Assembly (NCBI RefSeq): GCF_007751035.1
Contig: NZ_CP036433.1
Coordinates: 3,577,001 to 3,641,000 of the forward strand
Length of the DNA stretch: 64,000 nucleotides
Origin: Lignipirellula cremea
Lineage (GTDB): Bacteria; Planctomycetota; Planctomycetia; Pirellulales; Pirellulaceae
Direction of reading: 5' to 3'
Part shown: positions 34,523 to 64,000 of the stretch, piece after piece
Numbering within the stretch: position 1 is the first letter of the stretch
Layout of the letters: every line of letters starts with the position of its first letter
The notes under the pieces: model-generated
Database searches by the model: none
Told to the model about the DNA's origin: nothing
Seen by the model: the letters and a program-made list of their open reading frames with translations, nothing else
Made by a program: the position numbers and the translations under genes

Positions 34523-35111
34523 CGCCCACCCCTCTTTTTAACCTCGGTCGTTACAAGTGCACTCATCCCTATTCGTCCTGCGATGGGTGTCCTCTGCATA
34601 AAAGGTTGAATTGGCGCAATCGTTCTGATGAGAAATCCCATGAAAGAGTTTCCGTTGATTTTTCCGATCCGGGCTGGCGGCACGTATTTTGCGCGGTTTT
34701 CAGACCGGCTTGCGCCGGATACGGCCGTTCTGGCTGGAGCGATGAATTTCCAGGTTCATTGGCGAAACGGCGAATCGGAGGCGCGTAAAAGTTGACGGAC
34801 TGGGGGGGCTGCGACAATAATGGAACGGTTCCCTTCTCTCTTCGCACACGCTGGTCACGGAGCGGTCGCCCGGTTTTCTCTCCAGGAAAGTCGGCATGGT
34901 GCGAAGGACGCTAAGCACAATACCAGTTTGGTGTTACGCGTTATTGTCTGGGGTGCAGGACCGACAATTCGACCAGTTTTTATCGCACCATCAGGACGGC
35001 GTCTGGCCGTTCCCCTGTGGCGATTGAGCCCCCGGTCTATCGCCAGGGCGCTTTTGACACCCGCTGTAAATGCCCTGGCTGCCGCCTGGCGGCGCCTCAA
35101 GGAAACCACCC
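34523..35111. other. intergenic region upstream of the giant gene
   Basis: This is 589 bp between the divergent secreted-protein gene and the giant surface protein. Short frames here have no recognisable product. It contains one candidate sigma-70-like promoter (34792-34821), leaving an untranslated leader of almost 290 bases if used. Confidence 0.5.
34792..34821 (+). promoter_or_regulatory. candidate promoter for the giant surface protein
   Basis: TTGACG and AATAAT, each five of six matches to the sigma-70 consensus, are 18 bases apart. Direction and place fit the giant gene, but planctomycete promoter consensus is poorly known. Confidence 0.3.
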
Positions 35112-50100: not shown

Positions 50101-53100
50101 CCGCGGTGCTGGTGCAGAATGTGGAGATCCGCGCCGGTTCCATCGACCTGACCGCCAGCGATCTGACGACTGGCGTGACGCTGAATGGCGCCAACCTGCG
50201 GATCCAGAACGGACAGGCGGCGGCAGAGACGATCACTGTGACAGGGATCGTCACACTGACAACCGATGTCACCGTGACGGGCGCTCAGGGGGCCGGCGAC
50301 GACATCAGCTTCTCCTCGCAGATTCACGGCGATGTCGCCGGCGAGCATACGCTGGAATTTGCGGCCGGCCTGGGCGATCTGACGGTCGGCGGCGAAATCG
50401 GTTCGTTGGCCGGTGCCGGCCGATTGGGCGGCCTCACGATTACGTCCGCCCGGAACGTATCGCTGCAGGCGGTCAATATTACGGTCGGAGCCGATAACCA
50501 TGAAGGGCTGATCTCTACGAGCAGCTTCTTCCAGGCGGGGCCGATCGATGTGGTCGGCGGCCGCGTGGAGATTACGGCGGCCGGCGTGGTCGGCGGCGGT
50601 ACGCCGACGGAGTCGATCCGCCTGGCGACGGTCGACTCGCATGGCGGCGATGTGACGCTGACAGCGGCCGACGATGTGGTGTTGGACGGCGCTATTCATT
50701 CCACTGGCGAAGGCGGCCAGCTGCTTCTGCAGGGGATCGATGTCGGTACGTCGATTGGCCTGGGAGATGCGGCCCTGGGCGCCGGGGCGGGCGGCGGCGT
50801 GCATTTGTCGAGTGCTTCGGTCGCCAATTTGACGACCAGCCTGCAGGGAGTGGACGCTTTTGCGACCGTCGAGTTTGGTCGGGTCGGCCAGTCGGGCGAG
50901 ATTGAATTCGCCCTGGGCGGCGGGGGCGTTTCGCTGGCCTCGGAGACGATCATTCACGCCGCAGGCGGCGCCGTGATTGATATCGATAGCAACCTGGCAA
51001 CCACCCGGGGCGGGGCGACAGGGAACGCTCTCACCGTGCTGGGTTCGGCTGCTGCCGAAGTGCAACTGGGCGCCGATCTGGCCACCCGCGACGGCGCCGT
51101 GGCGGTGACGGGCGACGCGACGGTCCGGGTCACGGGCGATGCGCTGCGAACGATTACGACCAACGCCCTTGTCGGAAGCGGGGCGGCGGTTGAATTGACC
51201 GGTAGCCTTGTCGGCGACGGCGTGGGGAACGGGAACGATAGCTTGCTGATTGTGGCGGGCGACGGCGACGTTACGCTGGGCGGGAATCCGTCTGCCGGGC
51301 TGGAGCCGGCGGCTGATGTTTCGCCCGACTCGATCGGCGGGGCCGGAGCTAATCAGCGGTTTGGCGAACTGGGCATCGATACCACAGGCGACGTGGCGAT
51401 CAACGCCACGATCACGGCCGACGCCGTGCGCAAAACGGGCGCCGGAGGCAGCGTGTTCTTCCAGGGAGCGATCGACCTCGCGGGACAGTACAGCAGCGAC
51501 CCGCAAGGCGACGCGCTGGATGTCACGGCGGTGGCGATCACCTTTGCCGATGCAGCCAGCGTGCTTTCTTCCGGCGGCGGCGTCGACCTGCATGGCGTGG
51601 GTGATCTGGGCTCGGTCGTGATCGGCTCGGGCGACTTCAGCCTGACTGGCGCCGGCTCGGCGTTCCGGATTGACGGCGGTTTTGACCAGGTGTCGCTGGG
51701 CGCCGATATCTCTACCAGCTCGGGGCAGATTCGCATCGAACCAGGGGCTGGCCAGGCGGTCACGCTGACGGGCGATGTGCGGCTGGATACGGTTGCAAGC
51801 GGCGGCCTGGGGGCCGATGTGATCGTGCTGGGCGAAGTCGACGCTGATCTGGCGGCGAACGAACGTGTCCTGGCGATTGACGCCGGGGGAGCGGGGAACG
51901 TCGATCTGCAGGGCGATGTGGGCGCCGCGGCGGCGGTCGACAGCGTCGCCATCTCGGGACTCAACGTGGGCGTCCGATCGCTCTTTACCCAGGATGGCAA
52001 CGGCGCCGGGGCGGCCAATGGGATCGACATCAACGCGGTCGGACAATTGACGATCGACAACCGCGGCGGCGGGGCGACGTTCAGTACGGTCGCCGATCCG
52101 GGCGGAGCGGCCTCAGGCGTGCATCTGGCGGCGGGCGGCGGGATTCTGCTGGACGATCTGACCGGCGCGACGGCGGGCCTGTTCTCGATCTTGACCGACA
52201 GTACGACCGACGGCGCCGTGGCGATTGACAGCCGCCTGGCGAGCGCGGCGAACGAAGAGCAAAGCCTGTCGATCAGGGCCGGCGACGCCACCGCCACCCT
52301 GGGCGGCGTGATCGGCGGCGGATCAGAGTTTGGGACGGGCCGGTTGGGTTCGTTCGAGTCGCTGAATGACACCGTGATCACGGCGGCGCTCGGCGGCGAC
52401 AGCGTTACCCTTTCCGCCGTGGGCGGATTGACGTTCGGCAACGGCGCGGGAGCCGATCAACTGCTGCTGGGGGAAGACGTCGTCCTGGCGGGCGATACCA
52501 TGACATTCGACGCCGTGGTGGATTCGGAAGCGGCCGAGACGCGCAGCCTGACCGTGCTGGACCGCGGGGCTACCCGGTTTAACGGCGATATCGGCGCGGC
52601 GGCCAGCGGCGAACTGGGCGCTCTGGTGACGGCCGCCGGCGGACGAACGGAGCTGAACCTGAATACGCTGCAGGTGCGCTCCAGCGACGGGAGCGATGCG
52701 ACCGTGTTCAACGACCAGGTGCTGGTCGGCGAAGACCTGACCATTGTGCAACTGGGGGCGGCGAACGTGGAGTTCGCCACGACGCTCGACGCCAGCGAAG
52801 GCGTCAACCCGGATCTGGTGATCGACACGACGGGCGGCCTGACCGTCTTCCAGGGAGCGGTCGGTTCCGACGCTTTGGGTGCGTTGTCCGACGACGAAGG
52901 CTTCAACAGCATCACCACCGACGGCGTGCAGATTTCCGGCGGGTCGGTGACCACGATCGGCGATCAGACTTACCAGGGTGCGATGGAGCTGCAAAGCGAT
53001 CTGACGCTGAACTCTTCCGGTGATATACGTTTCGACAGTACGGTCGATTCGGCGCCGGGGGCGTTCGATCTGGTGATTGGCGCAGGCGTGGATGACGTTA

Positions 53101-56100
53101 CCTTTGGCGCGGCCGTGGGCGGAGCCGGGGCGCTCGGAAGCATGACGCAACTGGGCGGCAGCGGCTTGACGACTTTCAACGGCGTCACGGTGGAAGGCGA
53201 TGTTTCAATCGCCACGAACAACATCACGCTGGCGACGGGAACCTTGCTCACCAACACGCTGGGCGGCGCTGGCGTTTCGCTGGAGGCGATGAATGCGATC
53301 GTGCTGGCCGCGGGAACGTCGATCAATGCGACGGCGGGTCAGATTCTTATTGCCGCCAATGCCGACGACGCGGGCAGCCAGGGCTTCACCATGGCCGCCG
53401 ACGCTTCTTTGACAACGACGAACGATACGGCCCAGGCGCTGGCGATCACGGTCGGCGGGGCCGGGGCGGCGGATATTGCGTTCCTCCGTACAGGTACGGG
53501 GGCCGGCCGCACGACGATTACGGCCGACAGCATCCGCGATATTAACGACGGACTGGCCGCTCTGAATGTGCAGTCGGCCGAGGCGGTGTTCGTCGCGCAA
53601 AACGGCGTGGGCGACGGGAACGCGCTGGAGACGCGTGTCTCCCTGCTGGCGGCAAGTAACCAGCAAAGCGGCGCCATCGAGATCGACAATACCAGCGGAG
53701 CCGTGCTGCAGATCGGCGCCCCGACCGGCGCCGTGATCGAAGGCGTGACCCAGAACGCGGCCGGCGCCGCGATCGCCATTACCAATAACGCCAGCGTCAC
53801 GGTGAACAGCGCCGTCCAGAACACGAGCGCCGGAGCCACCACGCTGGCGACCACAGCGGGCGATCTTACCGTGAACGCCCTGGTGGAAAACTCGGGCATG
53901 ACCGGCGGGGACCTGTCCCTTACCGCAGCGGCCGCGATCGTGATCAACGAATCGGTCGCTGGAGCTGAAGTGGCCATTACCGGAGCCAACGACGCGGGCG
54001 GCGATCTGCGATTAACGGCCGGCGCCACGCTCAGCAGCACCGGTCAGATCATGAGCACCGGAACGACGGGCGCCGGCGGGGCGATCGTCCTGCAGGCGGC
54101 TGGCGATATCAACCTCACGACGTCGACCTCGCTGGCGCAAGTCGTCAGCACCGGCGCTACAGGCGGCGGGGATATTGCTATCACGGCGACCGGGACTGGC
54201 AACATTTCGACCACGGCGCAGATCGCCAGTCTGGCTTCCCAGAATGCGGCGGGCGACATTACGCTGCTCGCAGGCGGTGCGATTGCGATTCAAGAAACGA
54301 CCGGCGGGGAAAGTGAAATTCTCTCCCGCGGCGATTCGGGCGGGGTGCTCAGCCTGACCGCGCAGAACGGCGCCTTCAGCAGCAGCGGCCAGATCGTCTC
54401 CTCCGGCGATGTGGGCGCCGGCGGCGATATCATGATCCAGGCCCTGTCGGAGATTACGATCGGCACAGCCCCGGCGGGGGCGCTCGCCCGGGTGATCAGC
54501 ATGGGAGCCACCGATGCCGGCCAGATTACAATCCAGACCGCGACGGGCGGGATCACGACGACCGCAGCAATCGCCAGTATCGCCGTGGCGAACAACGCCG
54601 GCGACATTCGGCTCGACGCACCAGGCGCCATTCGTGTGAACGACGCCAGCACAGGGGACGAGATCAGCTCGCTCGGCGGCGGCGACGGCGGCAATTTGCA
54701 GATCGCCACGGGGGCCGGGCTGACAAGCTCGGGCCAGATCACGACCACGGGTGTGGCGGGCGTCGGCGGTGCAATTGATATCGATGCGCAGTCTGGCATC
54801 GTCATCGCGGCGACAGGCGGCGAACTGGCGAGCGTGGTCAGCGCCGGTGGAACCGACAGCGGCTCGATTGCTCTGGACACCCAGACGGGAGCGATCGATC
54901 TCACGGCGATGATTCTCAGCAGCAGCAACAGCACCGCCACGCTGCATCAGGCCGGCGCGATTGACCTGACGGCGGCCGCGGGCGCCGTGACGTTCCGCCA
55001 GTCCACCCTGGTCGCCAGCCTGGCGAACAACGGTCTGGGAGGCGATATTACCGTCAACGCCCAGGGCGGGGACTTTACTTCGGCGGGACAATTGGCTTCC
55101 GTGGGGGCGACCGACGGGGTGGTGGCGTCCGACGCGACGCACCATGGCGGCGACATTACCCTCATCGCCAGCGGCGGCATCGCCCTGAACGACAGCGGCG
55201 AAACGCTGGAGATTCAAACTAACGCCTTTACCGACCCGGCGAACGGGACGATCTACGGCAAAATTGTCGGCCGCGCCGACGACAACGGCGCGACGGGCGG
55301 CCTGGTGGTGTTTGGCGACAATGTACTGGTCAGCAGCACCACGGCCCAGATCAGCCGACTGCGAACCCAGGCGGGCGATGCAACCGAACTGGTCGTGCTG
55401 ATCTTTGATGACCCGGCGATTGATAACGACGGCGTCGCCGAGCTGACGGTGATCGTGAATGATCCGCTGGGACGCAACTATCAGATCATCATCGATTGGG
55501 GCGATGTCGAAGCCGACGTCCTGGGGAACGAGGTCGTCTCGGTGTTCTCCTATTCGCCCACTGCCAATAACGGCCATCCGGTCTCGGACCCCGTGAACGG
55601 AACGGACCCCACACGCCTGGGCGGCAACGACAGCGACCGCGATCCAGCGGACCAGTACGACCCGACTACCGACACAGCGGGCGAGTACGGCGGGGGCGTC
55701 GCGCATACGTTCTATTACCGTTACCTGTATGGTAATCCGAACCCGAACAGCCCCGGCGCCCCGGTCCCGATCACAGTGCGGGTGGAGTTTGGCGTCGCCC
55801 CCGACGCGACGCTGAACCCGAACGCCAGCGGCCAGAACGACCCCGCGGTAGCGGCCGGCTTGCTGCTGCCGACCCTGGACCCGGAGGTATTCCTGGCCAA
55901 CCCGGCCGACAATACGATCGTGTTTATGGAGAACGGAGTCGTCATTTCCACGACGGCGACGGCCTCTTTGAAACCTTCCGGGTTGCTGATCGCCGCGGTG
56001 GTGGTGAACCCGAATGTCGTCGCCGCGACGCTGCCTGAAGAGCCTGAAACTCCGACGGAAGTGAGTTTGATTCCGCTCGCGGTGCAAGTGACGCAGGAAT

Positions 56101-56972
56101 CGGTGGAGTTCGACTTTTTTGAAGAAGAGGAAGAGGAAGAAAAGTTCAAGCTGTTCTTCGTCACGCTGGATGTGAACGGGGACTCAAACGCGATTGAAAT
56201 CGCCTTGCCGGTCGACCTGCTGCTGGGCGATCGCCTGGCCGAGCTGTTCAAACGCTTCCCCGACGGCGAGTACATTATCAGCCAGCAGTCGCCCGGCGCC
56301 GAGCCGCTGGAGGTGTTCCATTGGCGCGTCGTGCAGGGGGCGATTGAACCGGCCTTTGTGCGCACTGTCGAAGACACCCCCGACGCCGGCGACGGCAATC
56401 CAGACGAAGCGGCCCCGCCCGCGGCCGAACAAGCCCAGCCCGCGGCGGAAGCGGTTCAGCCGGAAGCGACCGATTCTTCGCGTATCGAGCTGCCGGCCCA
56501 TTGGCTGGGGCCGAATGTTTTTGATCTTGATCGGGGTCTGCTGCACGGGGCGGAAGCGGTTCGCCCCCACGAGGTGCAGCTGGCCGCAGCGGACGATCGC
56601 GGCGCCGCGATGGATTTTGTGGAGCCGTCTACATTTTTCCTGGAGCGGACGGAAGCTTCGATTCACGCCCTGGAAAGCGAGCTGGCCCGTGCCGATGCGG
56701 TGCAGACCGCCTGGGCGGAAGCAGCCGAAGTGTCGCACGAAATGACCGAGGCGACGTTTGAGGCGGATACGGCGACCGAAGAGGTTGCCGGCGGACGGTT
56801 GTCGCGACTGCGGAATCGGCTGGGCCGGGTTTCGGCGGCGGGAGCGGCCGCCCTGGCGGGAGCCGCCGTGACGACTGTCGGCGGCTGGGAGTCCCAGGTC
56901 GAGGAAGCGCTCGACCAGGAGACCCGATCGCTGAAAAAGTCGGCGCGACTGGCGCGTCGGTTGCGCCGATGA
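35112..56972 (+). CDS. giant repetitive surface/adhesin-like protein, 7286 residues
   Basis: One uninterrupted frame of 21.9 kb. AAGGA 8 bases upstream supports ATG 35112. A short basic N-terminus leads to LEIRRVLDA (residues 40-48), similar to the LExR-x-L-A tag of planctomycete exported proteins. There is no ordinary signal peptide. Domains in order: about seven delta-60 repeats (51-422); a parallel beta-helix with ISLREAIEAANN and ending NGGPTQTHALLAGSAAIDTG (425-811); long filamentous-haemagglutinin-like repeats; six autotransporter-associated strand repeats (about 3300-4080); more adhesin-like repeats, with a 115-residue tandem at 6308-6655; a PKD-like IDWGD domain (about 6757-6900); and an acidic C-terminal module ending in a weak hydrophobic segment and an Arg/Lys tail. 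Reading the translation I found no Cys. It is probably a cell-surface or matrix protein; role is inferred. Confidence 0.93.
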   Translation: MPMPSWMKRLLWNNDYGSRAQQEKRRRQQQDYVQLGVLPLEIRRVLDAGGLDPGFGQMGVAVTNVGGNDFLATAAIEDNGQIVAAGEINGDFAIARFNADGSLDTTFGGGDGFATADFGYADHALAIAVDGNGNYVLAGESNADFALARFTSAGVLDTTFDTDGMQTTDIGVSSIDQVRGVAVDSQGRIVAVGFRDNEAAVARYTSAGQLDTDFSGDGKEAYAFAGSRFGAVAIGAADEIYAVGAAVGSNGVDFLVVGYDDEGTESFAAHHDLGGPDFAYSVAIDAGTLVLGGSSAGNFALIRVSAIDGALDLSFDTDGVVVTDFGFDSEEIHSLAIQADGAILATGNVGVLGGATDWGLARYRSDGSADPTFSTDGRLTLDIGEMDQAVAVVPQASENRILVVGAVTDSGSSDVAFARFDAVTTSIKVTSSNDLSNGDTTSIDALLLDPGADGISLREAIEAANNQAGRDTITFDAGVTAITLGGTELAITEELVIQGTGVGSLTISGDDASRIFHITAGAGLVEIRDLHLTKGDAGTGSGGAILTDSSLILDGVRVDQSFAAFGGGLSGDFGASETLLVVNSTFDGNDASVSGGGINVGGAGAVVTLSHSTLSNNRSLAASTGAGGGLVVFGGADANIFNTTLSGNQAASGVGGAAQLSSLGNLVIVNSTVVNNTASDAGGLNLGSITAATIDNTILANNTATTTAAADLANTSANLVTSNSIVEFYAGDLGEDVTVLTGDVADLNLGALADNGGPTQTHALLAGSAAIDTGDSNAANAAGLTTDQRGAGYQRVEGASVDMGAFEKEPVVAPTLLSFTRQTPAEEVTSSSTLVFRATFDADVQNVTADDFIVNGTTGMVTDVQAIDAQTYDLTISTGDLGVVSSTVDLDLDTASQDITDLGNVALANVQPAVDETYRIAASVALSGSDLQVTGLSGADDLLITMDGGDVVVTDAVVGEIGRFTPGVGGFDGNLLVDLLGGNDKLTVDSSVFDAGLTVTYDGGADVDSLALTGSATKVEHQFTNENDGSVLLNDAAFVAYLGLEPIDDQINVAGDRVFTFNDDANAIVLRDDTTEGNVANVSFIDSDGSESVTFTTPTGDVIIHTGDGDDQIDIQGLDAGFNVNVIVHGDLGADTLTGPNAATAWTVDGDRSGSFTSAGLPAGVTVSFDAITNLQGGTDDDAFAVDASGQIGQINGGAGAGSDQLLVADDSAGVTSVVLTGPQSGSVSRNGLAPVLFTQIEPNTLTLTGVADVVITLPDGLTAGVILEDADGGSSGQMRLRSAAVGTPEFVAVVFDNPTGSLTIQGGNASETLTIESVDADFDAALTINLNDGAADQIVVAADLSLGSATSTGDLRLTAETISLDDGNIVTDRVIATNRAGGAAGVFVLDGDVLLGENVQVTTGGGMIDLRQATVSASATNVALELDAGLVGGGDVFLADFDNVAGGQLVGSVSVTTGGLLHLAGGVYLQGGFNLTGAAGIVVDASSVIDTDSIDNGGAGDILLGNVGVSASAAGLSLRLDATAQGNFGDVGGDITVGDVANAAGAGEFLGGFTALTEGAAVILAHGDLLVDGGLLELAGLVQLADTDADNAVRLATSGGQVDLSLASLSAGHLGITATIDSSLSGSTGGTIALGEVKGGNGIGGLMMNTGDPGETAAVTLGGDIKLFQSATVAPVFNIANDADVRIDPTLSAVNLDKVITIDLTSGSGPGGQVQWGQSIVTATAAGAELVIMTGATAAGKDGGNVTLGEVGGATPLSSFSIDSRSTTGVDGRITLGGNASTGNIAIAALQADDAITLAGSVLLAADAGSVVAWTTDPSAAAGAGKIALGNAAIAADNLVSLTLDTRSLASSGGAVTIGSVAGPLQQLTVEAGAQRVQIEGAVGSGVNEEIGELIVNAGDFAIITGGSVLVDVVNGSNAAITITTDAVQLDGTLATTGRATIDTLTAGRRIDLGVDVSGQLVLGDAELDRITASVLQIGSSSSGDILLTADVDLDVAQVATLHLQSGGAINNDGLGTTHTLGADSLALTAVDGIGNVNLLQVATGPTTLAAEVLGAGDLVLHETSDVVVGEVDGVVGLSTFDGLITLTADGQITVDRAVTAGNDGGGADHDVTLTATGAALLVNATITADDEILLTAGATATIDADLLASGPRAVINAGGAITFGTTTAVLVDSGLEATAGGSISQTEALTVAGSALFSAAGFDVVLANAANDFLSVGVTAANDATFVDVNQIVLDSISLTDVALDLGDLSVIAGGSITDSAGVVIAVSGLASFDAGGNAITLGDDAGDTVDFGQLAVSGGVVTIAEDSGTELASVAATDLILTSDGDITDVPLAPIAVSGQTTLAAGVNDILLDGQTNDFNLVVIVGASEVSLADANSLTLGDAAIAGDLIVRIDADQATVSDNAVFTFDALATQSFGGSILVSGGGDSDGDRVLVNRSVTAATSFTIQDMAEVVIVGGADLAASAGDVSLATNVGLVTFSGADGATNQITATDAGGVATVRLAQVASTNDITLTILTEAVELSTVATNLQAGELVLEQNGAGQAIDIGAAGTSDFVLTAAELEAITAARLQIGNAATGGQLNLLADVDLTNGGSVAQVVDLRSNADLVDGGPDAQLTVERIAITANTIGGDTLATDDINLVQGGTGPLELAYQATAGVFITTTGDTQLTAVAGLTTHTSGGGLLDTTGALQISVDGDYTDDMTFIASSSLTIDNAAQVTLDKATAGRLTFQAGTDLLFDTGVVVTTDSTLVNPTHTVELIAGGTVTQTNNTAISVTTNTLMVTADNGVGVSALLRFRFAADRLSVDTSANAGNQFLQDTAGDLIVASLTAGAGNIDLLGSGTLRNAVDDNTADIAGGQITLVSTGVIGGPAAGDALDIAAMGAVNVNSGGAEIRLDSLAVLNVGVIDAGAANVFLNVSDGVSNLAILDALGDDNVVDITAGLLTIEAASTVGVSRLNAVNLAVDALAINDGAGPVGPGATGDVFLTNAGSINLEMILVDGANFLLETLLGGDINNDNSDGLVSAAAITLIAAGGIGIFEDRELTTTSTGVLSLTTQGDDGDGDIRLRETNDLAASRLVVVTQTAGAAAQTVRLATDGVFTVDSDLGHLTDNLEITADGVNGGGAGIEQTAPGVLTGDRVALTATNGDIGSMAAPVAVHTDDASGGVLELTADGDIFVTSASDLTVARVATGLGPDMVKILTTSGAELTLTGDAGYVNLADDAIQLGADGLLTLSSNDLTAASLDIDTTGDNVDIDVSLTLSGLLSVDTLDGGFDLAAGEVITTGTAFNVNLGAGSGDINGMLSGAGELNLDGGQLTLHVDNDYAGLTQVNVGQLTLLTSAGLGSTLAGTIVAEGAVLEFAGGLNVLEDITLSGTLLSTGSSNTLSGLLTLASVDGGVVDTTTDLILAGQITGGGGLVKQGVAAATIQGDNDYTGVTDVQLGRLVVQHNNALGATGGANGTVVQDGAVLVVDDTAAALSISETLTLSGTGEAGFDAALVHLGENASVWLGPITLAADAAIESRGVDAGDSLTLSGGLALDEFEVAFQTTTANSLIVVDGVISQGVNPAVGSVLKSGVGVLEYRGAAANTYTGLTQVDAGVLLLNKTAGVDAIAGDLAIAGGALVQLLANEQINNGSNVDVSALGTWDLNDFDETLNELTGAGLVQLGDVSTGNVLTIGGVDADGFTFAGVIAEQGNLVKEGVGQLTLSGVNTFVGAAAITDGSVLLDATGQLTGVTAIQVGDGLGPVMEQLLLGADDRINDAAVVTVASTGQLGLQNYSETIGGLAGAGVVEFDAAPNNVLTIATVTGDNFIFSGVLQGNGDLVKSGDGEQTLAGAVANTRAGNTSVLGGSLILDKTAGVDAIAGGLVTVGDGLTGATLQLNQANQIGDGTVVLLQADGVWDLNDQSEQVAQLTGSGQAMLGAGDPTTTLTLGDANDFTFDGVISEQGDLVKVGAGVMTLTGDHTFVGAADINGGVLLLNGSLAAGATVNVNNSAVLAGVGAANGAVNIAAGGTLAPGDPAVNAGVGQFTINGLLSVADDGIVAIELNGPADHDVIVFTAGVTLDSGALLSLDFVTAPAAGDNYVFLRNDGVLTVSGEFEGFAENTAVLTAGLPARVLYQSGGDGDDGALTFDGGELVVTGTAGDDQYFIYRDGNTLHLVQGGVLVGENVVGGTTIDSRSIFSGHTIVINAGAGNDTTTILLTRDVNGAGAGDENFNNDFTGVIAFNGEADVDRVEIVSTANGTATAGRLTHQFLDSEQGELTFDNDLDGAGAGFLVQYSGTATIDSQHLAADDQPIVFQEVLLSYDSDAFDLITQAIDLTADAVVPALNRATASGGAADFVFASPVVLLSLQAGEGEDLIDVNSLGTGFDASMLIHAGAEAGDEVNLKVDLLLGSASNTGALTVVADTITVDPGVTIDTTAGTAGEVRLTANVGGVIFGDDASITTTGANAQVAITSGVGGVLFGATTSPGVTIDAGASLLSVQATGAVQASQTKFVTTNASDDAVRVLGSSVDLGDVEFGGGLTVTATSGDATLHGDLQKSGSASGFALIQAAGSIHVGPMVSVGVDTPGGASNTLAITLAADTNALGGGAIDLAINAVLDSNGGDILLGGGDAAGSGFAVGQAGQRDAVSLAAGALVLSGGGQITVRGQGFDDVTPLNNDGRGLFTAVGALIDAGAGDVLVVVSGSDLVTADQTTAQIRGDVLTLEAVGGASADIGETGSLVSIAAAEIHGGAQGGLFRVNELDGVTLDGLRVSQIATLGGNAEIRTNDGDLLLENGAITAGTGDIRLETNAAIIDEENDDAAVNLQGADLQLMAQTGVGGLLAADDDLDLSVDSVSATTVTGDIVLTETSGLTITPGGLQVTGAGGAIVVQVLTGPLLVNGQVANAGSGRVDLHTDNALIALAADVTAAGGDVTLTSANVTVAGDRIIRSNGVAAAGEIRLTGLIDAFDSSDATVDTLTILANGAVTDGDVFLEQNVGDANALNGLEISGAAVLVQNVEIRAGSIDLTASDLTTGVTLNGANLRIQNGQAAAETITVTGIVTLTTDVTVTGAQGAGDDISFSSQIHGDVAGEHTLEFAAGLGDLTVGGEIGSLAGAGRLGGLTITSARNVSLQAVNITVGADNHEGLISTSSFFQAGPIDVVGGRVEITAAGVVGGGTPTESIRLATVDSHGGDVTLTAADDVVLDGAIHSTGEGGQLLLQGIDVGTSIGLGDAALGAGAGGGVHLSSASVANLTTSLQGVDAFATVEFGRVGQSGEIEFALGGGGVSLASETIIHAAGGAVIDIDSNLATTRGGATGNALTVLGSAAAEVQLGADLATRDGAVAVTGDATVRVTGDALRTITTNALVGSGAAVELTGSLVGDGVGNGNDSLLIVAGDGDVTLGGNPSAGLEPAADVSPDSIGGAGANQRFGELGIDTTGDVAINATITADAVRKTGAGGSVFFQGAIDLAGQYSSDPQGDALDVTAVAITFADAASVLSSGGGVDLHGVGDLGSVVIGSGDFSLTGAGSAFRIDGGFDQVSLGADISTSSGQIRIEPGAGQAVTLTGDVRLDTVASGGLGADVIVLGEVDADLAANERVLAIDAGGAGNVDLQGDVGAAAAVDSVAISGLNVGVRSLFTQDGNGAGAANGIDINAVGQLTIDNRGGGATFSTVADPGGAASGVHLAAGGGILLDDLTGATAGLFSILTDSTTDGAVAIDSRLASAANEEQSLSIRAGDATATLGGVIGGGSEFGTGRLGSFESLNDTVITAALGGDSVTLSAVGGLTFGNGAGADQLLLGEDVVLAGDTMTFDAVVDSEAAETRSLTVLDRGATRFNGDIGAAASGELGALVTAAGGRTELNLNTLQVRSSDGSDATVFNDQVLVGEDLTIVQLGAANVEFATTLDASEGVNPDLVIDTTGGLTVFQGAVGSDALGALSDDEGFNSITTDGVQISGGSVTTIGDQTYQGAMELQSDLTLNSSGDIRFDSTVDSAPGAFDLVIGAGVDDVTFGAAVGGAGALGSMTQLGGSGLTTFNGVTVEGDVSIATNNITLATGTLLTNTLGGAGVSLEAMNAIVLAAGTSINATAGQILIAANADDAGSQGFTMAADASLTTTNDTAQALAITVGGAGAADIAFLRTGTGAGRTTITADSIRDINDGLAALNVQSAEAVFVAQNGVGDGNALETRVSLLAASNQQSGAIEIDNTSGAVLQIGAPTGAVIEGVTQNAAGAAIAITNNASVTVNSAVQNTSAGATTLATTAGDLTVNALVENSGMTGGDLSLTAAAAIVINESVAGAEVAITGANDAGGDLRLTAGATLSSTGQIMSTGTTGAGGAIVLQAAGDINLTTSTSLAQVVSTGATGGGDIAITATGTGNISTTAQIASLASQNAAGDITLLAGGAIAIQETTGGESEILSRGDSGGVLSLTAQNGAFSSSGQIVSSGDVGAGGDIMIQALSEITIGTAPAGALARVISMGATDAGQITIQTATGGITTTAAIASIAVANNAGDIRLDAPGAIRVNDASTGDEISSLGGGDGGNLQIATGAGLTSSGQITTTGVAGVGGAIDIDAQSGIVIAATGGELASVVSAGGTDSGSIALDTQTGAIDLTAMILSSSNSTATLHQAGAIDLTAAAGAVTFRQSTLVASLANNGLGGDITVNAQGGDFTSAGQLASVGATDGVVASDATHHGGDITLIASGGIALNDSGETLEIQTNAFTDPANGTIYGKIVGRADDNGATGGLVVFGDNVLVSSTTAQISRLRTQAGDATELVVLIFDDPAIDNDGVAELTVIVNDPLGRNYQIIIDWGDVEADVLGNEVVSVFSYSPTANNGHPVSDPVNGTDPTRLGGNDSDRDPADQYDPTTDTAGEYGGGVAHTFYYRYLYGNPNPNSPGAPVPITVRVEFGVAPDATLNPNASGQNDPAVAAGLLLPTLDPEVFLANPADNTIVFMENGVVISTTATASLKPSGLLIAAVVVNPNVVAATLPEEPETPTEVSLIPLAVQVTQESVEFDFFEEEEEEEKFKLFFVTLDVNGDSNAIEIALPVDLLLGDRLAELFKRFPDGEYIISQQSPGAEPLEVFHWRVVQGAIEPAFVRTVEDTPDAGDGNPDEAAPPAAEQAQPAAEAVQPEATDSSRIELPAHWLGPNVFDLDRGLLHGAEAVRPHEVQLAAADDRGAAMDFVEPSTFFLERTEASIHALESELARADAVQTAWAEAAEVSHEMTEATFEADTATEEVAGGRLSRLRNRLGRVSAAGAAALAGAAVTTVGGWESQVEEALDQETRSLKKSARLARRLRR
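35262..36378 (+). repeat. delta-60 repeats (about seven)
   Basis: The unit is about 50-55 residues, with the pattern LD-x-x-FG, then AIA-x-D-x-GNxVLAG and FALARF. Examples are LDPGFG, GSLDTTFGG, GVLDTTFDTDG and GALDLSFDTDG. These probably form blades or a beta-helix at the N-terminal end of the giant protein. They are common in bacterial surface proteins of unknown function. Confidence 0.85.
45000..47340 (+). repeat. autotransporter-associated beta-strand repeats (about six)
   Basis: Units carry the G-x-LVK-x-G-x-G-x-LTLSG-x-N-x-Y-x-G pattern. Examples are GLVKQGVAAATIQGDNDYTG, GNLVKEGVGQLTLSGVNTF, GDLVKSGDGEQTLAG and GDLVKVGAGVMTLTGDHTF. Two units share LDKTAGVDAIAG-type text (45920 and 46680). 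The block ends with GGTLAPGDPAVNAGVGQ, as in autotransporter passengers, yet no outer-membrane autotransporter barrel follows. Confidence 0.85.
54033..55076 (+). repeat. three tandem units of 345, 345 and 354 bp
   Basis: Unit starts at 54033, 54378, 54723 and 55077 read SSTGQIMSTG, SSSGQIVSSG, TSSGQITTTG and TSAGQLASVG. Each unit carries a G-AGG-I, a GDI-x-L and a late LSLTA-like strand at the same phase. The fourth unit is cut short by the PKD-like region. Confidence 0.9.
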
Positions 56973-57161: not shown

Positions 57162-60100
57162 ATGAATAACGACGAACGGCCCCACGACGACCACGAAAAC
57201 CTGGACCCCCTGGCCGAAGACGGTTCCCAGGAACCGCATCCCGGCGGGTCGGTTCCCGGCGATTCGCCCGTCGGCGATCCCCCCACCGCGCGCGATGACT
57301 TCGCGCCGACCGGGGACGAAGGGAGGGCGACGGTCGACGGCGACGACCCCACGCAACTGCGGCCAGCAGAAATGGGGACGCTCGACGACCTGCCCGCCGA
57401 CGACGAAGCTGTCTGGGCCGAGGAAGACGACCTGCGCGATACAGTTTCCGAGGGGGAGGAAATTTACGAAGTCGAAGAGGTCTTGGACCTGGCAGAGGAC
57501 GCAGAACCGGTGGCCGATGCGGCCCCAGAAGATCAGGCCACGCTGGAAGGTCCCTTGTCCGATGCGGAGTGGACGCATACCGAAACAGTCGAATTTGACG
57601 CCTTGCCTGAGGGTTTTCTCGATCCGAGTTTGACGGTGGACGGCCTGCCGGACGAACTCGCGCCGTTGCTCGACGACTCGCGCCAAACGGTCGATGGTCT
57701 CGGCGACGATCGGCCGCCCGGCAGCGAACCGCCTGCCTGCATGGAAACCGTCGACGGCCTGCCCCTGGAAGCAGACGAACCAGCCGGCATGGGCACGATC
57801 GACGACATTGGCGCGTCCGCGGAGGAACGTTCGCCGCAAGAGCAGACGCTGGATGACATCCGGCTGCCGGAAGCAGACGAACCGGCTGGGATGGGCACGA
57901 TCGACGACATTGGCGCCTCTGCGGAGGAACGTTCGCCGCAAGAGCAGACGCTGGATGACATCCGGTTGCCGGAAGCAGACGAACCGACCGGGATGGGTAC
58001 GCTGGACGATGTCGATCTGACGGATCCGGGTTCCGCCGGAGAAGATACGGTCGACGAACGGCTGTTGGAGGACCCTGAGGTCGAATCGTTGCTGGCGGGG
58101 ACTGCCGGCGCTCCCCTCACGGAGATCGAAGGCACGATCGAAATGACGGGCGAGGAGTTGGCGGCGATCAGGGCCGAAGCGGAAGCCGATGCGCAGTCCG
58201 GCAGTGCGGACGATGCTGACCCGCCCGCTCCGAGCAAACCGCTGAGTCTGGGTCCTGGCGGCTTGGATCTGCCCGCCGATGAAAAGGGGACCGTGTCGGA
58301 GATCTCGCCGGAATGGAACCTGGCGGAGGCCGCGGCTCCGGAAGGGCGCGTGGATCTGCAGTCGCCGCCCCGGCGGGATGAGAAGGCGACGCTGGACGAC
58401 GCCGAATCGCTGCAGACGCACTCCGCCGATGAACTGGATACGGCCGTCGATGCGGACGGCCCGGCCACGGGCAAGGCCACGTCTGGATCTGGACCGGGTG
58501 GTTCTTCGCCAGGCGGGGCCGAACTGCTGCGCACCCTGGATTCCGATGAGTTTGAGCCGCTTGCGGCGCCCTATGACACGGCCAGCGACCGCACGCTGGA
58601 TTCGGATGAATTTGTTAATCCGCCCGGGGTGAACCGGCAAACACTCGATTCGCTCGATGTGCCGGCCGACGAACAGCAGGGCCAGCGCGGCGAACCGCGG
58701 ATCGATCAAACGCTCGACTCGGTCGATCTTCCTCCTGGCCTGTCGGCGTCGGTGGATCGGGCTTCGCAAACGGTCGACGATGTTCCGGCAACTGCGGATG
58801 CAAGCCAGCAAACGCTGGACGACGTCCCGCCGGATTCGCCCGGCGCCGATGACCAGCGCACCATCGATCAGACCATGGATTCGGCCGACTTCCCTTCGCT
58901 GCCGTTTCCGCCTGGCGGGCCGCTGGAAGGGGCGTCCCGAATCGATCAAACGCTGGACTCGGTTGACCTGCCGCCGGACGCGCCAGTCAAGTCGAACACC
59001 GTGGAAGCACGCGCCATTTCGCAAACGCTGGATTCGACCGAGTTTGGGCCGGTCGACGCCAAGGCGTCGGGGGCGACGCTAGAGTCGGGCGAAGTTTCCG
59101 CAGAGATCCCGCCGGAGGACTCGCCCCGCATCAGGGCCACCTGGCAAGGGGCCGTCGGCGAAGCGACCCCTATGACTTCGATCCGGGCCGAGCTAACGCT
59201 GCGTCCGTCGGTCGAGGACGAAACCAGTCTGGTCATCCAGCACCGCAAGTTCGGCGACCGCAGCACCGGCTCCCAAACGCCGGTCGACTACCAGGTGGTC
59301 AAGCAGCTGGGCCAGGGCGGCATGGGCGTGGTCTACGCGGCGAAGCAGACCTCGATCGATCGTACGGTCGCGTTGAAAATGCTCAAGGCCGAAACGGCCA
59401 AACAGAAAGTGCAACGGAACAAGTTCCTCTCCGAGGCGGTCGTCACGGGCGATCTGGAACATCCCAACATTGTTCCCATCTACGACCTGGGGATGAACGA
59501 CGACGGCGCGCTGTACTACGCCATGAAGCGGGTCGTCGGCACGCCGTGGGACGAAGTCGTCCGCAGCAAGGGACTGGGCGAGAACCTGGAAATCCTGATG
59601 AAGGTCGCCGACGCGGTCGGGTTCGCCCACGCGCGGAAGGTGATTCACCGGGACCTGAAGCCCGAGAACGTCATGCTGGGCGGGTACGGGGAAGTGCTCG
59701 TGATGGACTGGGGTCTGGCCATTCCTTCCGACGGCCGGAAGATCGGCGGCATCAAACAGTCCGTCAGCATGGGCGGCACGCCAGCCTACATGGCTCCCGA
59801 AATGGCGGCCGGTCCGTTCGAAAAGATCAGCATCCGCAGCGATATTTATTTGCTGGGGGCGATGCTCTACGAGATCATTTCCGGCAAGCCGCCGCACACG
59901 GGCCGCGATGTGATGAAGTGCCTGTTCGCCGCCGCCAAGAATGAAATCCAGCAGACGACGGAAAAAGGCGAGCTGGTGGAGATCGCCCTGCGCGCGATGG
60001 CGACGGAGCCGGAAAATCGCTTCGGCGCCGTCAGCGAATTCCAGGAAGCCATTCGCCGGTACTTGTCGCATTCGGAAAGCATCAAGCTGTCGGACCGCGC

Positions 60101-63100
60101 TGCGGAAGATCTGCTGGAGGCTCGCGACTCCAAAAATTATGAAGATTTCGCCCGGGCCCGCTTCGGATTTATGGAAGCGTTCGAACTGTGGTCTGGCAAC
60201 GACAAAGCCAGGCAGGGTGTGGCGGAAACCAGTTATCTGTACGCCAGCACGGCTTTGGAAAAAGGGGACTACGACCTTGCCCTGGGTCTGCTGGACCAGC
60301 GGGACGAGGGGCACCAGGAACTGGGCCAGCAGGTGGAGCTGGCGCAGAAAGAGCGGGACCAGCGGCAATTGCGGCTGAAGCAGCTGCGGCGCTGGTCGAT
60401 GATCGGTCTGGCGACCTTCCTGCTGGTGGTGCTAGGCTTCTCGGCCGCGGTGTCCAAGTTGTACTTCGACGCGGAAAGAAGCGCCCTGGCGGCGGAAAAG
60501 TCCGCCCAGGAAGCGAAGGAGTCGGCCGAGCTGGCCAAGGCGGAAAAGGTCGCCGCCGATATCGCGCGGGAAGACGCCGTCGCCAAACGCCTGGCCGCCG
60601 TCAAAGCGGAAGCAGCAACGCGTGAAGCCCTGAAAACGGCCGAAGAGCAACGCTCCAAGGCGGAAGCCAGCACGGCCGAAGCGCTAGCCCAGAAAAAGCT
60701 GGCGGATGAAAACGCGGAGAAAGCCCGCGTGGCCCAGGCGACCGCGCTCGTGGAGCAGAAAAAAGCAGAGACCAGCGCGGAGGAAGCCAAAGTCGCCCAG
60801 TCACTGGCGGAGGTGGAAAAGAACAAGGCGGAAAAAAGCGCTGATGACGCCCGCAAGGCCAAGCTCCTGGCGGATGCGGAACGGGAGAAGGCCGTCAAGC
60901 AGGAAGAGCTGGCCAACGCCGCCAAGGTGGCCGCCGAAAAAAGCGCGATCGAGGCGAAGAAAGCACAAGACGAAGCAGTCGTTGAACGGCAGCGGGCCGA
61001 AGCCCAGGAGAAGCTGGCCGTTGATAAAGCAGAAGAAGCCCGCCTGGCGCTCGTCCGCGCCAGTCGCGAACAGTACAGCGCGCTGATTGGCCTGGCGAGC
61101 GCCAAGATTGAAGAGAACGCATTCGGCCAGGCTCGATCCATCCTCGAACAGATCGCCCAGGACGACTACCTGGGCCCGTTACGAAACTGGGAATGGGGCC
61201 GGCTGAAGTACCTGTGCCAGCAGAGCGTGATGGAGTTTCCCCAAGCAGACGAGCAGGGATTCGCCCTGGAAGCGGTCGCTTTAGTTCCGAGCGGGACCGA
61301 CGCCCTGCCCACCCGGTTCGTGGTCGGCGGCGACAGCCGCGACGCGCTCGTTTATGACATCGCCCATCCCAAAGCTCCGCCGCTGCGCACGCCGGCGGCC
61401 GCCACCCGGGTCGACGCCCTGGCCGTGTCGCGCGACGGTTCTTTCCTGGCGACCGCGGGCGACAATCCCGAGGGATCCGGCGTGCGGATTGGCTCCGTCA
61501 AGCTTTGGGCGGCTCCCGACTATACTTCGGAACTGCGCGAGATTGCGGCCCATCCGGGCGAGCGGATTCGCAGCCTTGACTTTTCGCGCGACGGCAAGTG
61601 GTTGTTGACGGGAGCCAGCAATGGCGTGGTCCGCATCTGGAACGCCGCCACCGGCGAGCAGCGCGGGGGCGATTACCGGGGGCACCGCGGCGCCGTGTAC
61701 TCGGCGCGGTTCTCTCCCAACGGGAAGAGCTTTGTCACGGCCGGACACGATGGCGTTGCGGTGGTATGGAACGCTTCTGATCACGCTGCCGGCAAGGCCG
61801 AGTTCAGCCAGGCCCCGCCGTTTCGCGGGCATACCGGACCGGTCTACGCCGCTGACTTCAGCCCCGACGGCAAGCGGGTCGTTACCGGCGGCGAAGATAA
61901 ACGCATCCTGCTGTGGGATCCGGCCCTGCTGACCGAGTTTGATTTTGATACGGCCGTTCGCAACTTCAAGGAAGGGAAGAAAGTCGAAGAGGTCAAAAAA
62001 GAAATTGACTATCGCGAGCTGGAGGGCGACTCCATCGATGACCGTCATACGGCGGCCGTGAGGGCGGTCCGTTTTTCCGACGACGGCGTTCGTATCATCT
62101 CTGCCAGCCAGGACAACACGGTCAAGGTGTGGCGAGCCGATACGCTGGAGCTGTATAAAACACTTCGCGGCCATGGGAACCCGGTGAGTGCGCTGTCCGT
62201 GTCGCCGACGGGGGAACGGATCGTTTCGGTCGGCTACGATGAAACGCAGCAGGCCCGAGTTTGGGATATCGAACAGTACAGTACGCTGGCCGTGCTAGGC
62301 TCCCAGGAACTGGAAGGCCATCACGGCGCCGTGTTGGCAGCGGCCTTTGCCCAGGGGCGCCAGGGCGATCGCCCGGCCGGGCAGGTCGTGCAGGAGGATC
62401 CGGCGGAGGAAACGCTAGAGGTGGTTACCGCCAGCGCGGATCGCACCGCCCGCACCTGGAAGTTCCGCCGCGCCTGGCGGACGAACGCGGATGGCAAGAA
62501 GGGCGCCTGGAGCCTGGAGGAAACGTCGTCGGTCGAGCATAAAGAAGGCCACCGCTTTCTCGCTTCGAGCGTCGTCTTTTTTCCGCCCCGCACCGGCGAG
62601 CGTCAACGCATTGCGACGGGCGCCGGCGACAATACGGTGCGGATCTGGGACATGGAACGGAAGGTCGAACTGGCGGCCCTGTCCAGCACAGGCCGCGAAG
62701 GGGTGGTCGATATTTCCGCCGACGGCAAGCTGATCGCCACCGGCAGCAATGGACTCGTGGAAGCAGCGTCGCGCAAGCCGGGCGAAACCTACGATGAAGT
62801 GGAAGGGAAGCTCTACCGCCGCACACGCAGCGATGGCTGGGCCTTCAAGCTGTGGGACGCCGACGGCAAGTACCTGGCGGAGATCCAGGGCCAGGATGCG
62901 GAAGCGACGGCGCTGCGTTTTGTAGCGACTTCCGAGCGACCGCATCTGCTGGCGGTGGGCGATGTCGACGGCGACATCCGATTGTGGGACTGCGACCAGG
63001 CGCTCGCCAGCCAGAAAGCGGGCCAAACTCCCTCGGCCTTGCTGACCCTGCAGCCGCGTCCGCATCAGGGCCGCGTGGTGGAAATTCTGTTCCTGCCGGG

Positions 63101-64000
63101 TCTCCGCATGTTCAGCGGCGGCGTCGATTGTCTGGCCCGGGTTTATGATCTGAAGCAGCAGCAAGAACTGGCCCGACTGGTTCATCCGATGGCGGTGACC
63201 GCTTTGGCGGCGACCGCGAGCGGGGATCGCCTGTTGACGGGCTGCGAAGACGGCAAGGTGCGCCTGTGGAAAGCCGACGGAACGCTGCTCTGGACGTTTG
63301 ACCTGACCGAATACGACCAGGTGTCGGCCGATCCAATGTCGGCCAGTCTCCGGCTGGGGGCTGTCGTCAAGGGCGAACCGGGCGGCCTGAGAAGCAAGCC
63401 GCCTTTGGTCCGGTCGCTTGATATTTCCGCCGACGGCAAATCGGTTCTGGCGACGCTCTCTGCCGGAGAGATGGACCTGCCTGGCCCGACCTTGCTTAAA
63501 TTCCGCGGCGTGTATGTCCAGCGATTCAACCTGACTGACCAGGCCCCCACGGAATTCAAACGTTTCGAGGGCCAGCGTGAGTTCCTGGAAGCGCGGTTCG
63601 CCCCCTTCGGCGAAGCCGGGAACCGCCTGATCGCCGCCGTCGGCGGCGACGAAGCGATGCTGTGGCGCGAACAGGATCGTGGACCGAGGGGCGACTTGAG
63701 GCCCAACGGAGCCCTGCTGGCCGCCCGCTTTAATTCCCAGGGCGATCTGTTTGTCACCGCCAGCGATGACGGCAGCGCCCGGATCTGGAGCGTGCCGCAG
63801 CAGCACGCCCTGTTGAAGCTGGAAGGCCACCGCGGCGTGGTGTACTCGGCCGTATTCTCCCACAACGACGCCCAGGTGCTGACCAGCGGCGCCGATGGCA
63901 CGGCTCGCCTGTGGGATGCGCGTTCCGGAGCGGAGATCCGCCGGCTGCCGCTGCCGGAGACGAAGCTGGAACTGGGGCCGTTGCGGTCGGCCGTCTTTTC
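57162..64000 (+). CDS. giant transmembrane Ser/Thr kinase with WD40 repeats (3' end outside window)
   Basis: The frame is open for 2279 codons to the window edge. AAGG precedes ATG 57162 by 7 bases. Residues 1 to about 700 are acidic and disordered-looking, with about 28 Thr-hydrophobic-Asp/Glu motifs (GTLDD, QTLDS, TVDG). The kinase domain is at about 709-985: glycine loop LGQGGMGVVY, Lys739 in VALK, HRDLKPEN at 829-836 (catalytic Asp831), DWG 849-851 in place of DFG, and GTPAYMAPEM. A transmembrane segment follows (about 1079-1098, WSMIGLATFLLVVLGFSAAV). Next is an Ala/Glu/Lys coiled coil (about 1102-1300), then about 15 WD40-like units (VRIWN, ILLWD, ARLWD) to the end. Kinase and acidic leader are on the cytosolic side and the coiled coil and WD40 part outside, if topology is single-pass. 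The activating signal and substrates are unknown. Confidence 0.93.
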   Translation, partial: MNNDERPHDDHENLDPLAEDGSQEPHPGGSVPGDSPVGDPPTARDDFAPTGDEGRATVDGDDPTQLRPAEMGTLDDLPADDEAVWAEEDDLRDTVSEGEEIYEVEEVLDLAEDAEPVADAAPEDQATLEGPLSDAEWTHTETVEFDALPEGFLDPSLTVDGLPDELAPLLDDSRQTVDGLGDDRPPGSEPPACMETVDGLPLEADEPAGMGTIDDIGASAEERSPQEQTLDDIRLPEADEPAGMGTIDDIGASAEERSPQEQTLDDIRLPEADEPTGMGTLDDVDLTDPGSAGEDTVDERLLEDPEVESLLAGTAGAPLTEIEGTIEMTGEELAAIRAEAEADAQSGSADDADPPAPSKPLSLGPGGLDLPADEKGTVSEISPEWNLAEAAAPEGRVDLQSPPRRDEKATLDDAESLQTHSADELDTAVDADGPATGKATSGSGPGGSSPGGAELLRTLDSDEFEPLAAPYDTASDRTLDSDEFVNPPGVNRQTLDSLDVPADEQQGQRGEPRIDQTLDSVDLPPGLSASVDRASQTVDDVPATADASQQTLDDVPPDSPGADDQRTIDQTMDSADFPSLPFPPGGPLEGASRIDQTLDSVDLPPDAPVKSNTVEARAISQTLDSTEFGPVDAKASGATLESGEVSAEIPPEDSPRIRATWQGAVGEATPMTSIRAELTLRPSVEDETSLVIQHRKFGDRSTGSQTPVDYQVVKQLGQGGMGVVYAAKQTSIDRTVALKMLKAETAKQKVQRNKFLSEAVVTGDLEHPNIVPIYDLGMNDDGALYYAMKRVVGTPWDEVVRSKGLGENLEILMKVADAVGFAHARKVIHRDLKPENVMLGGYGEVLVMDWGLAIPSDGRKIGGIKQSVSMGGTPAYMAPEMAAGPFEKISIRSDIYLLGAMLYEIISGKPPHTGRDVMKCLFAAAKNEIQQTTEKGELVEIALRAMATEPENRFGAVSEFQEAIRRYLSHSESIKLSDRAAEDLLEARDSKNYEDFARARFGFMEAFELWSGNDKARQGVAETSYLYASTALEKGDYDLALGLLDQRDEGHQELGQQVELAQKERDQRQLRLKQLRRWSMIGLATFLLVVLGFSAAVSKLYFDAERSALAAEKSAQEAKESAELAKAEKVAADIAREDAVAKRLAAVKAEAATREALKTAEEQRSKAEASTAEALAQKKLADENAEKARVAQATALVEQKKAETSAEEAKVAQSLAEVEKNKAEKSADDARKAKLLADAEREKAVKQEELANAAKVAAEKSAIEAKKAQDEAVVERQRAEAQEKLAVDKAEEARLALVRASREQYSALIGLASAKIEENAFGQARSILEQIAQDDYLGPLRNWEWGRLKYLCQQSVMEFPQADEQGFALEAVALVPSGTDALPTRFVVGGDSRDALVYDIAHPKAPPLRTPAAATRVDALAVSRDGSFLATAGDNPEGSGVRIGSVKLWAAPDYTSELREIAAHPGERIRSLDFSRDGKWLLTGASNGVVRIWNAATGEQRGGDYRGHRGAVYSARFSPNGKSFVTAGHDGVAVVWNASDHAAGKAEFSQAPPFRGHTGPVYAADFSPDGKRVVTGGEDKRILLWDPALLTEFDFDTAVRNFKEGKKVEEVKKEIDYRELEGDSIDDRHTAAVRAVRFSDDGVRIISASQDNTVKVWRADTLELYKTLRGHGNPVSALSVSPTGERIVSVGYDETQQARVWDIEQYSTLAVLGSQELEGHHGAVLAAAFAQGRQGDRPAGQVVQEDPAEETLEVVTASADRTARTWKFRRAWRTNADGKKGAWSLEETSSVEHKEGHRFLASSVVFFPPRTGERQRIATGAGDNTVRIWDMERKVELAALSSTGREGVVDISADGKLIATGSNGLVEAASRKPGETYDEVEGKLYRRTRSDGWAFKLWDADGKYLAEIQGQDAEATALRFVATSERPHLLAVGDVDGDIRLWDCDQALASQKAGQTPSALLTLQPRPHQGRVVEILFLPGLRMFSGGVDCLARVYDLKQQQELARLVHPMAVTALAATASGDRLLTGCEDGKVRLWKADGTLLWTFDLTEYDQVSADPMSASLRLGAVVKGEPGGLRSKPPLVRSLDISADGKSVLATLSAGEMDLPGPTLLKFRGVYVQRFNLTDQAPTEFKRFEGQREFLEARFAPFGEAGNRLIAAVGGDEAMLWREQDRGPRGDLRPNGALLAARFNSQGDLFVTASDDGSARIWSVPQQHALLKLEGHRGVVYSAVFSHNDAQVLTSGADGTARLWDARSGAEIRRLPLPETKLELGPLRSAVF
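57789..57992 (+). repeat. 102 bp near-perfect tandem duplication in the kinase leader
   Basis: Copies at 57789-57890 and 57891-57992 differ at 5 of 102 bases and at one residue. Each encodes 34 residues with GTIDD and QTLDD motifs. A third copy begins at 57993 (MGTLDDVDL) but diverges after about 8 residues. Confidence 0.93.

Follow-up and report, generated by a model that had tools for sequence, protein, structure and literature searches.

A threonine motif array in the N-terminal leader of a planctomycete transmembrane kinase encoded next to a giant-protein gene

The 708-residue N-terminal leader of a kinase from the planctomycete Lignipirellula cremea carries a real array of short threonine motifs, comprising 27 copies of T-[LIVM]-[DE], the first at 57330 and the last at 59076. 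Positions refer to the window, i.e., the whole stretch of 64,000 nt that we analyzed, which spans positions 3,577,001 to 3,641,000 on the forward strand of NZ_CP036433.1; the genome is a single contig of 9.57 Mb, and every feature located below within the window lies on the + strand. An earlier note on this DNA, made from its letters alone, had reported about 28 such motifs in front of a Ser/Thr kinase, and both the number and the coordinates it gave were essentially right.

Results

The kinase ORF starts with an ATG at 57162 (MNNDER...), encodes 2460 amino acids in total and extends beyond the window to the equivalent of position 64544. From the N to the C terminus, the leader is followed by a Hanks kinase domain, a single transmembrane (TM) segment and WD40 repeats. 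The leader (57162..59285) is acidic, with a net charge of about -137, and gave no Pfam match within 57162-59222. The kinase domain (59286..60155), assigned by Pfam (Pkinase, E 1.9e-37) and by alignment, contains HRDLKPEN, DWG at the position of DFG, and GGTPAYMAPE, and the catalytic Lys, HRD and DWG are invariant across 19 aligned kinases of the family. By its domain and catalytic residues, the protein is thus a Hanks-type Ser/Thr kinase. The TM segment was located by hydropathy at 60396..60452 and is followed by an Ala/Glu/Lys-rich stretch, read directly, and by WD40 repeats found with Pfam (60453..64000, continuing past the window). As the TM segment is more basic on its N-terminal than on its C-terminal side in all 38 parsed orthologues, the leader and kinase are predicted to lie inside the cell and the C-terminal WD40 part outside. 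With a kinase, one TM segment and C-terminal WD40 repeats, the protein belongs to the planctomycete kinase-TM-WD40 receptors. Identity as a PASTA kinase of the PknB/StkP type was rejected, as the NCBIfam model PknB_PASTA_kin scored 217 bits in 59223-60200 of the window against a cut-off of 450; no PASTA repeats were seen in the C-terminal part among 25 of 35 families listed, and WD40 families were found there. In a structural model of 58893-60158, the kinase domain lies mostly above a pLDDT of 85 and the end of the leader at about 32-48, such that the last 110 or so leader residues are modelled as disordered. The notion of a disordered leader is thus upheld for its end. No leader segment beyond the final 20 residues or so is confidently placed in this model.

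Counts against shuffled sequence, which had been proposed as a check on the array, lie far over chance. T[LIV][DE] occurs 26 times in the leader, as compared to a mean of 2.1 and a maximum of 7 in 2000 shuffles, and T[LIV]D[DSG] occurs 19 times (shuffled mean 0.38, maximum 3). The serine equivalents are near chance in this leader (S[LIV]D[DSG], 0 vs 0.34; S[LIV][DE], 5 vs 2.1), as is the alanine control (A[LIV]D, 1 vs 1.7), and the enrichment is accordingly specific for threonine. Chance or composition as the origin of the array was ruled out by the shuffles together with the Ser control. Copies 1-14 (57330..58145) read TVDG, TLDD, TLEG, TVEF, TVDG (three times), TIDD, TLDD, TIDD, TLDD, TLDD, TVDE and TIEM. 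Seven of the last 13 copies (58389..59087; from the count and the leader alignment) are of the form T[LM]DS, namely TLDS six times and TMDS once, and the final copy lies in GATLESGEVS. Across all 27 copies, the residue at +3 is Asp in 9, Ser in 8 and Gly in 5. A repeat search found a 102-bp tandem repeat of 2.4 copies at 57767..58009, which is a recent expansion of one part of the array. The 27 cores are, nonetheless, written in the DNA as 17 distinct 9-mers, with Thr encoded by ACG (20), ACC (5) or ACA (2) and Asp by GAC (13) or GAT (9), so that a fresh repeat alone does not account for the array.

We also considered the rest of the genome. It holds 72 Pkinase matches, some sharing an ORF, and among the 46 kinase ORFs caught by a regular expression, no other leader exceeds 2 motifs, which speaks against the array being a general trait of the kinases of this genome. 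No second array was found in about 0.93 Mb of the genome's DNA (ORFs of at least 120 aa, overlapping stretches being counted twice), where the densest other ORFs hold 4 motifs within 200 residues. Searching with the leader returned one other match, at E 0.12; this should be considered with the fact that, for some 90% of the genome, the leader search, which is weak for low-complexity sequence, was the sole coverage.

Relatives of the kinase at E<=1e-60 were found in 95 of 149 genomes of the family, these matches including shorter paralogues. For the family comparison, 40 loci were taken, of which 38 were parsed by a regular expression (L151 and L153 were dropped) and joined by the window, giving 39 leaders, one of which (L131) ends at a contig end. 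The motif T-[LIVMF]-[DE] is enriched at p<0.01 in 27 of these 39 leaders and in 21 of 29 genera, with a pooled count of 240 against 33 expected, the Ser version being pooled at 69 against 40 expected and significant in 3 of the 39. The glycine-loop rule for the end of the leader truncated the leaders of L122 and L145 (and of L242, outside the family); recounting under a stricter rule gave the same 27 of 39 leaders and 21 of 29 genera, with 240 against 33.3, and changed the counts outside the family very little. When referring to these numbers, it should be noted that the genomes are related and the leaders, therefore, not independent, an effect that counting per genus lessens rather than removes. 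Copy number ranges from 0 to 27 among the family leaders, with that of the window being the highest, and rises with leader length (Spearman 0.66, and 0.71 in the recount). As 9 of the 39 leaders carry 0 or 1 motif (one of them, L131, at a contig end), the kinase does not require the array. Conservation in orthologues, which the earlier note had named as a check, thus applies to the core form of the motif and not to the number of copies.

Past the family, in leaders from elsewhere in the order and class, the strict motif fades (41 vs 23 expected; 2 of 21 leaders significant) and the relaxed Thr-hydrophobic form alone persists, being found 265 times against 108-109 expected and enriched in 20 of the 21 leaders. 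Ser-hydrophobic pairs number about 99-105 against 135-139 expected and are enriched in none of the 21, and the consensus there is about [QAKR]-T-[ILMV]-[VA]-S-D-E. Among distant named genomes, 75 of 80 loci were parsed and their leaders hold 0-2 motifs; most of these loci share less than 45% identity with the query and probably represent other kinase families. Two close named-genome matches, L154 (63%) and L155 (50%; from the same genome as L138), carry 1 motif each, which weakens the case for wide conservation of the array.

The motif core is T-[VIL]-D, with a conserved acid at +2. The earlier rationale, namely that Thr-x-x-Asp is the class of site read by FHA domains, did not survive the counts: T-x-x-D occurs 12 times in the leader against a shuffled mean of 7.5 and a maximum of 16, which is not significant, and across the family copies, Asp at +3 is depleted, being found in 11 of 232 distinct contexts (11 of 231 in another count) against 27 expected. 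An array of pThr-x-x-Asp FHA ligands is thus ruled out by the +3 counts of both leader and family. To follow the positions around the core, we took one leader per genus and removed near-duplicates, leaving 151 motif windows from 20 genera. The lineage-specific positions were -1 (z 6.4), +3 (z 6.0) and +4 (z 5.0), with weaker signals at -4 (3.9), -3 (3.2) and +1 (3.0) and none at +2 (z 0.4). FHA domains are generally regarded as selecting at +3, and a lineage-specific +3 is, therefore, the expected product of a changing FHA reader; homogenization of repeats within one gene could also yield lineage-specific residues at -1 and +3.

Upstream of the kinase lies a gene for a giant repetitive protein of 7300 aa (35070..56972), annotated by nothing other than DUF5122, DUF5649 and PATR repeats, with about 190 bp between its end and the kinase start codon. 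Its repeat annotation and the published view of giant genes suggest that the protein is presumably exported. A profile shows that its C-terminal region (55911..56972), which has a basic end (...KKSARLARRLRR), is homologous to proteins encoded upstream of orthologous kinases. BLAST clustering of neighbouring ORFs joined the proteins of 34 loci; among the 14 clustered matches listed, 11 precede the kinase on its own strand with a gap of 4-138 bp, two run into its called start and one sits at a greater distance upstream. A same-strand ORF whose end falls anywhere from 16 bp inside the kinase start to 218 bp ahead of it was found in 28 of 39 loci, that of L124 being unrelated. The giant protein of the window, of which just the last 323 residues were present in the clustering, is not in the BLAST cluster; a profile of the C-termini from the other loci, with the window excluded, matches its C-terminus at 84 bits. 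As the training set of the first HMM of the giant tail included most of the loci that were then scanned, those matches hold by construction, and the independent evidence for the pairing is the BLAST clustering, the non-training matches, including the window, and co-occurrence.

For co-occurrence, we used a profile of 20 C-termini from paired proteins, that of the window included, and at most 15 candidates were scored per genome. The profile was found in 75 of the 149 family genomes, all 75 of which have a kinase match, and in none of the 54 genomes with no kinase match at E<=1e-60, matches including shorter paralogues (Fisher p 4e-24, ignoring relatedness). In the L. cremea genome, it has one match. 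Just upstream of a kinase and on the same strand lie 71 of the 81 giant-profile matches; the other 10 come from multi-contig assemblies and lie on different contigs from the kinase entries with which they were compared. The giant and kinase genes of genera g17 and g68 seem truly apart, as the DNA upstream of the kinases of L116, L118 and L124 is without a giant C-terminus. Outside the family, the giant C-terminus was found in 12 of 21 loci, within the several hundred bases visible upstream. The last 25 residues are net positive in 23 of 27 upstream proteins.

The kinase is directly followed by an FHA gene of the same orientation in 5 of 38 parsed loci, from genera g19 and g43, the gap being 127-187 bp in the four loci listed. 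The linked protein has about 400 aa and a conserved C-terminal part (L139:10660-11859; also in L141, L142, L143 and L145). Full-length versions were found in 11 of 149 family genomes (4 of g19, 6 of g43 and 1 of g20), and in all 11 the coordinates place the gene just behind the kinase. As the g43 and g20 proteins are just 41-45% identical to the g19 query, the linkage is old, and it may be of single origin. G-R, S-x-x-H and N-G-T, which we take to be the canonical FHA residues, are kept in 8 aligned sequences of the linked domain. A Foldseek search with a model of the linked FHA protein (a poor model, with a mean pLDDT of 50) matched the FHA domains of GarA, FhaA and OdhI, and the best 50 of 256 matches are FHA-bearing entries. 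In the five FHA-linked leaders (g19 and g43), Leu or Ile occupies +3 in 33 of the 36 copies in which this position can be read. Leu is likewise the most frequent +3 residue in g12 (5 of 10 copies) and in g7 (3 of 10 and 3 of 7), and no linked FHA gene was found in the neighbouring DNA searched at the g12 and g7 loci. The L. cremea genome has 23 FHA matches, so that FHA readers would be available, and a search there found no full-length homologue of the linked protein. The recruitment of FHA proteins that the earlier note had proposed keeps some support from three relative genera, where an FHA gene adjoins the kinase, but not from L. cremea.

Discussion

The topology pattern, the disordered end of the leader and the folded kinase model point to a sensor kinase with a tail that it would write itself. 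In the reading that we prefer, and which we judge to be evenly balanced between right and wrong, the protein would be an outside-in sensor kinase with a multi-Thr autophosphorylation tail, paired with the giant protein and read by FHA domains. The giant exported protein and the transmembrane kinase would act as a pair, with the outside WD40 part sensing the condition of either the giant protein or the cell surface and thereby switching on the kinase. The kinase, acting in cis or on its neighbours, would then phosphorylate the Thr residues of the many T-[VIL]-D motifs that its own leader carries, and the recruitment of pThr readers, most likely FHA-domain proteins, would scale with the number of sites written. 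Recognition by the kinase would rest on the T-[VIL]-D core and recognition by the reader on the lineage-specific residues at -1 and +3. A multi-site scaffold calls for a repeated Thr motif in disordered sequence and for Thr over Ser; the repeated motif is present, with disorder modelled for the last part of the leader, and Thr is preferred, the Ser version being enriched also in 3 of the 39 family leaders. A broader proposal, which we offer tentatively and hold to be doubtful, is that of a planctomycete module of three parts, namely a giant surface protein, a partner kinase and a self-written multi-site pThr code, in which the kinase would fix the core, -1 and +3 would co-evolve with the FHA reader and the number of sites would set the gain.

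Several other readings of the array need to be weighed. The fixed hydrophobic residue at +1 and acid at +2 amid varied surroundings resemble a short linear motif, and the copies might thus be unphosphorylated docking peptides, whereby Thr-hydrophobic-Asp would be bound directly by the kinase itself, or else by a phosphatase or scaffold partner, and the number of copies would raise the local concentration. We consider this rather unlikely, as the preference for Thr over Ser holds class-wide (Ser-hydrophobic 105 vs 139, Thr-hydrophobic 265 vs 109) and is better met by phosphorylation or by a pThr-specific reader, and as the kinase model gives none of the leader, except its final 20 residues or so, a confident place. 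The array might also be a substrate sink or a timer, in which many weak autophosphorylation sites would slow or buffer the output, or relieve autoinhibition, with no reader at all. The growth of copy number with leader length fits the addition of equivalent sites, and seven phosphothreonines are reported for the StkP juxtamembrane segment in PMC12077195. Such a role is unlikely in our view, as it leaves the lineage-specific -1 and +3 and the linked FHA gene unexplained.

That the leader serves mainly as a polyanion for binding the Arg-rich C-terminus of the giant protein, with phosphorylated Thr motifs adding charge, would agree with a net negative charge in all 39 leaders (-3 to -137), with the positive ends of 23 of the 27 upstream proteins and with the pairing of the genes. 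We regard it as improbable, since many upstream proteins have a weak membrane segment, or none, by which the end of the giant protein would be brought inside, the charge is low in several orthologues, and charge alone needs neither Thr nor a hydrophobic residue. Neutral low-complexity sequence spread by tandem duplication is strongly disfavoured and has very little chance of being the explanation: the one 102-bp tandem block, the range of 0 to 27 copies among orthologues and the possible homogenization within the gene, which could produce lineage-specific -1 and +3, are set against a core that is kept with its Thr specificity in 21 of 29 genera and that is coded in 17 distinct ways among 27 copies.

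For the autophosphorylated, FHA-read tail that we prefer, the MDC1-NBS1 system and PknB or StkP with FhaA appear, by analogy, to be the closest in working principle. We take the MDC1 scaffold not to be a kinase itself. According to PMC8079451, the pSer-Asp-pThr (SDT) repeats of MDC1, a protein of eukaryotic DNA repair, are written by CK2 and read by the FHA-BRCT module of NBS1. This is alike in that multi-site phosphorylation of repeated acidic Thr motifs recruits an FHA protein, but the motif there is S-D-T, whereas here it is Thr-hydrophobic-Asp within a bacterial membrane kinase and its phosphorylation is predicted. For PknB and StkP, PMC12077195 describes several juxtamembrane phospho-Thr residues, which are proposed to dock FHA proteins, the binding of FhaA to PknB, and the poor fit of the seven juxtamembrane phospho-Thr of StkP to the StkP substrate motif. 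These are likewise bacterial transmembrane Hanks kinases with phospho-Thr (here putative) outside the catalytic domain. Their segment, however, lies between kinase and membrane, whereas here a long N-terminal leader carries one repeated motif, and an outside WD40 part replaces PASTA and is joined by the gene of a giant-protein partner.

The planctomycete kinase-TM-WD40 receptors are described as having a cytoplasmic kinase, a membrane-spanning segment and a predicted outside WD40 part (PMC11032199, PMC5587647; available parts); the layout is the same as here, but neither a Thr array nor a pairing with a giant protein is mentioned in those parts. Giant genes of planctomycetes are, in the main text of PMC5177795, very long, common in the phylum and mostly presumed to encode surface proteins or synthetases; the likeness lies in length and surface type, whereas here a single giant family goes with a single kinase, and the words "kinase" and "operon" do not occur in that text. 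In open PMC papers, judged by their titles and the openings of their abstracts, we recognized no description of such a Thr array or giant-kinase pair and no planctomycete phosphoproteome data, found no bacterial FHA-read phospho-motif scaffold built into the kinase itself, and obtained no result for FHA peptide-library specificity in mycobacteria. The statement that no system with this architecture had been described thus stands for the open PMC papers alone.

Planctomycetes have many kinases, FHA proteins and giant proteins, and the connections among them are little known. Our finding offers one testable wiring, from giant protein to partner kinase, Thr array and reader, and the strong pairing of a giant family with a kinase provides a handle on the purpose of planctomycete giant proteins.

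Further features of the leaders and kinases

DWG replaces DFG in all 19 of the aligned family kinases. An FHA-kinase fusion ORF, with the FHA domain at the N terminus, is present in the L. cremea genome (L081:3962-8389). In the leaders of L116, L118 and L124 (genera g68 and g17), the Ser version is enriched beside the Thr motif, as in DSDSIEFDE of L124, and the giant gene is not adjacent to the kinase. Of 38 orthologue leaders, 22 (among them L117, L124 and L139) contain zinc-ribbon-like CxxC...CxxC pairs; the window leader holds one Cys in all and is without such pairs. Close to the kinase domain, at 59142..59186, lies a conserved Trp element, W-x-G ... P-x-T-[SI]-[IL]-[KR], which was read from the leader alignment without statistics and is weaker than the array. 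This element occurs twice in the leader of L043, which has zero copies of T-[LIVM]-[DE].
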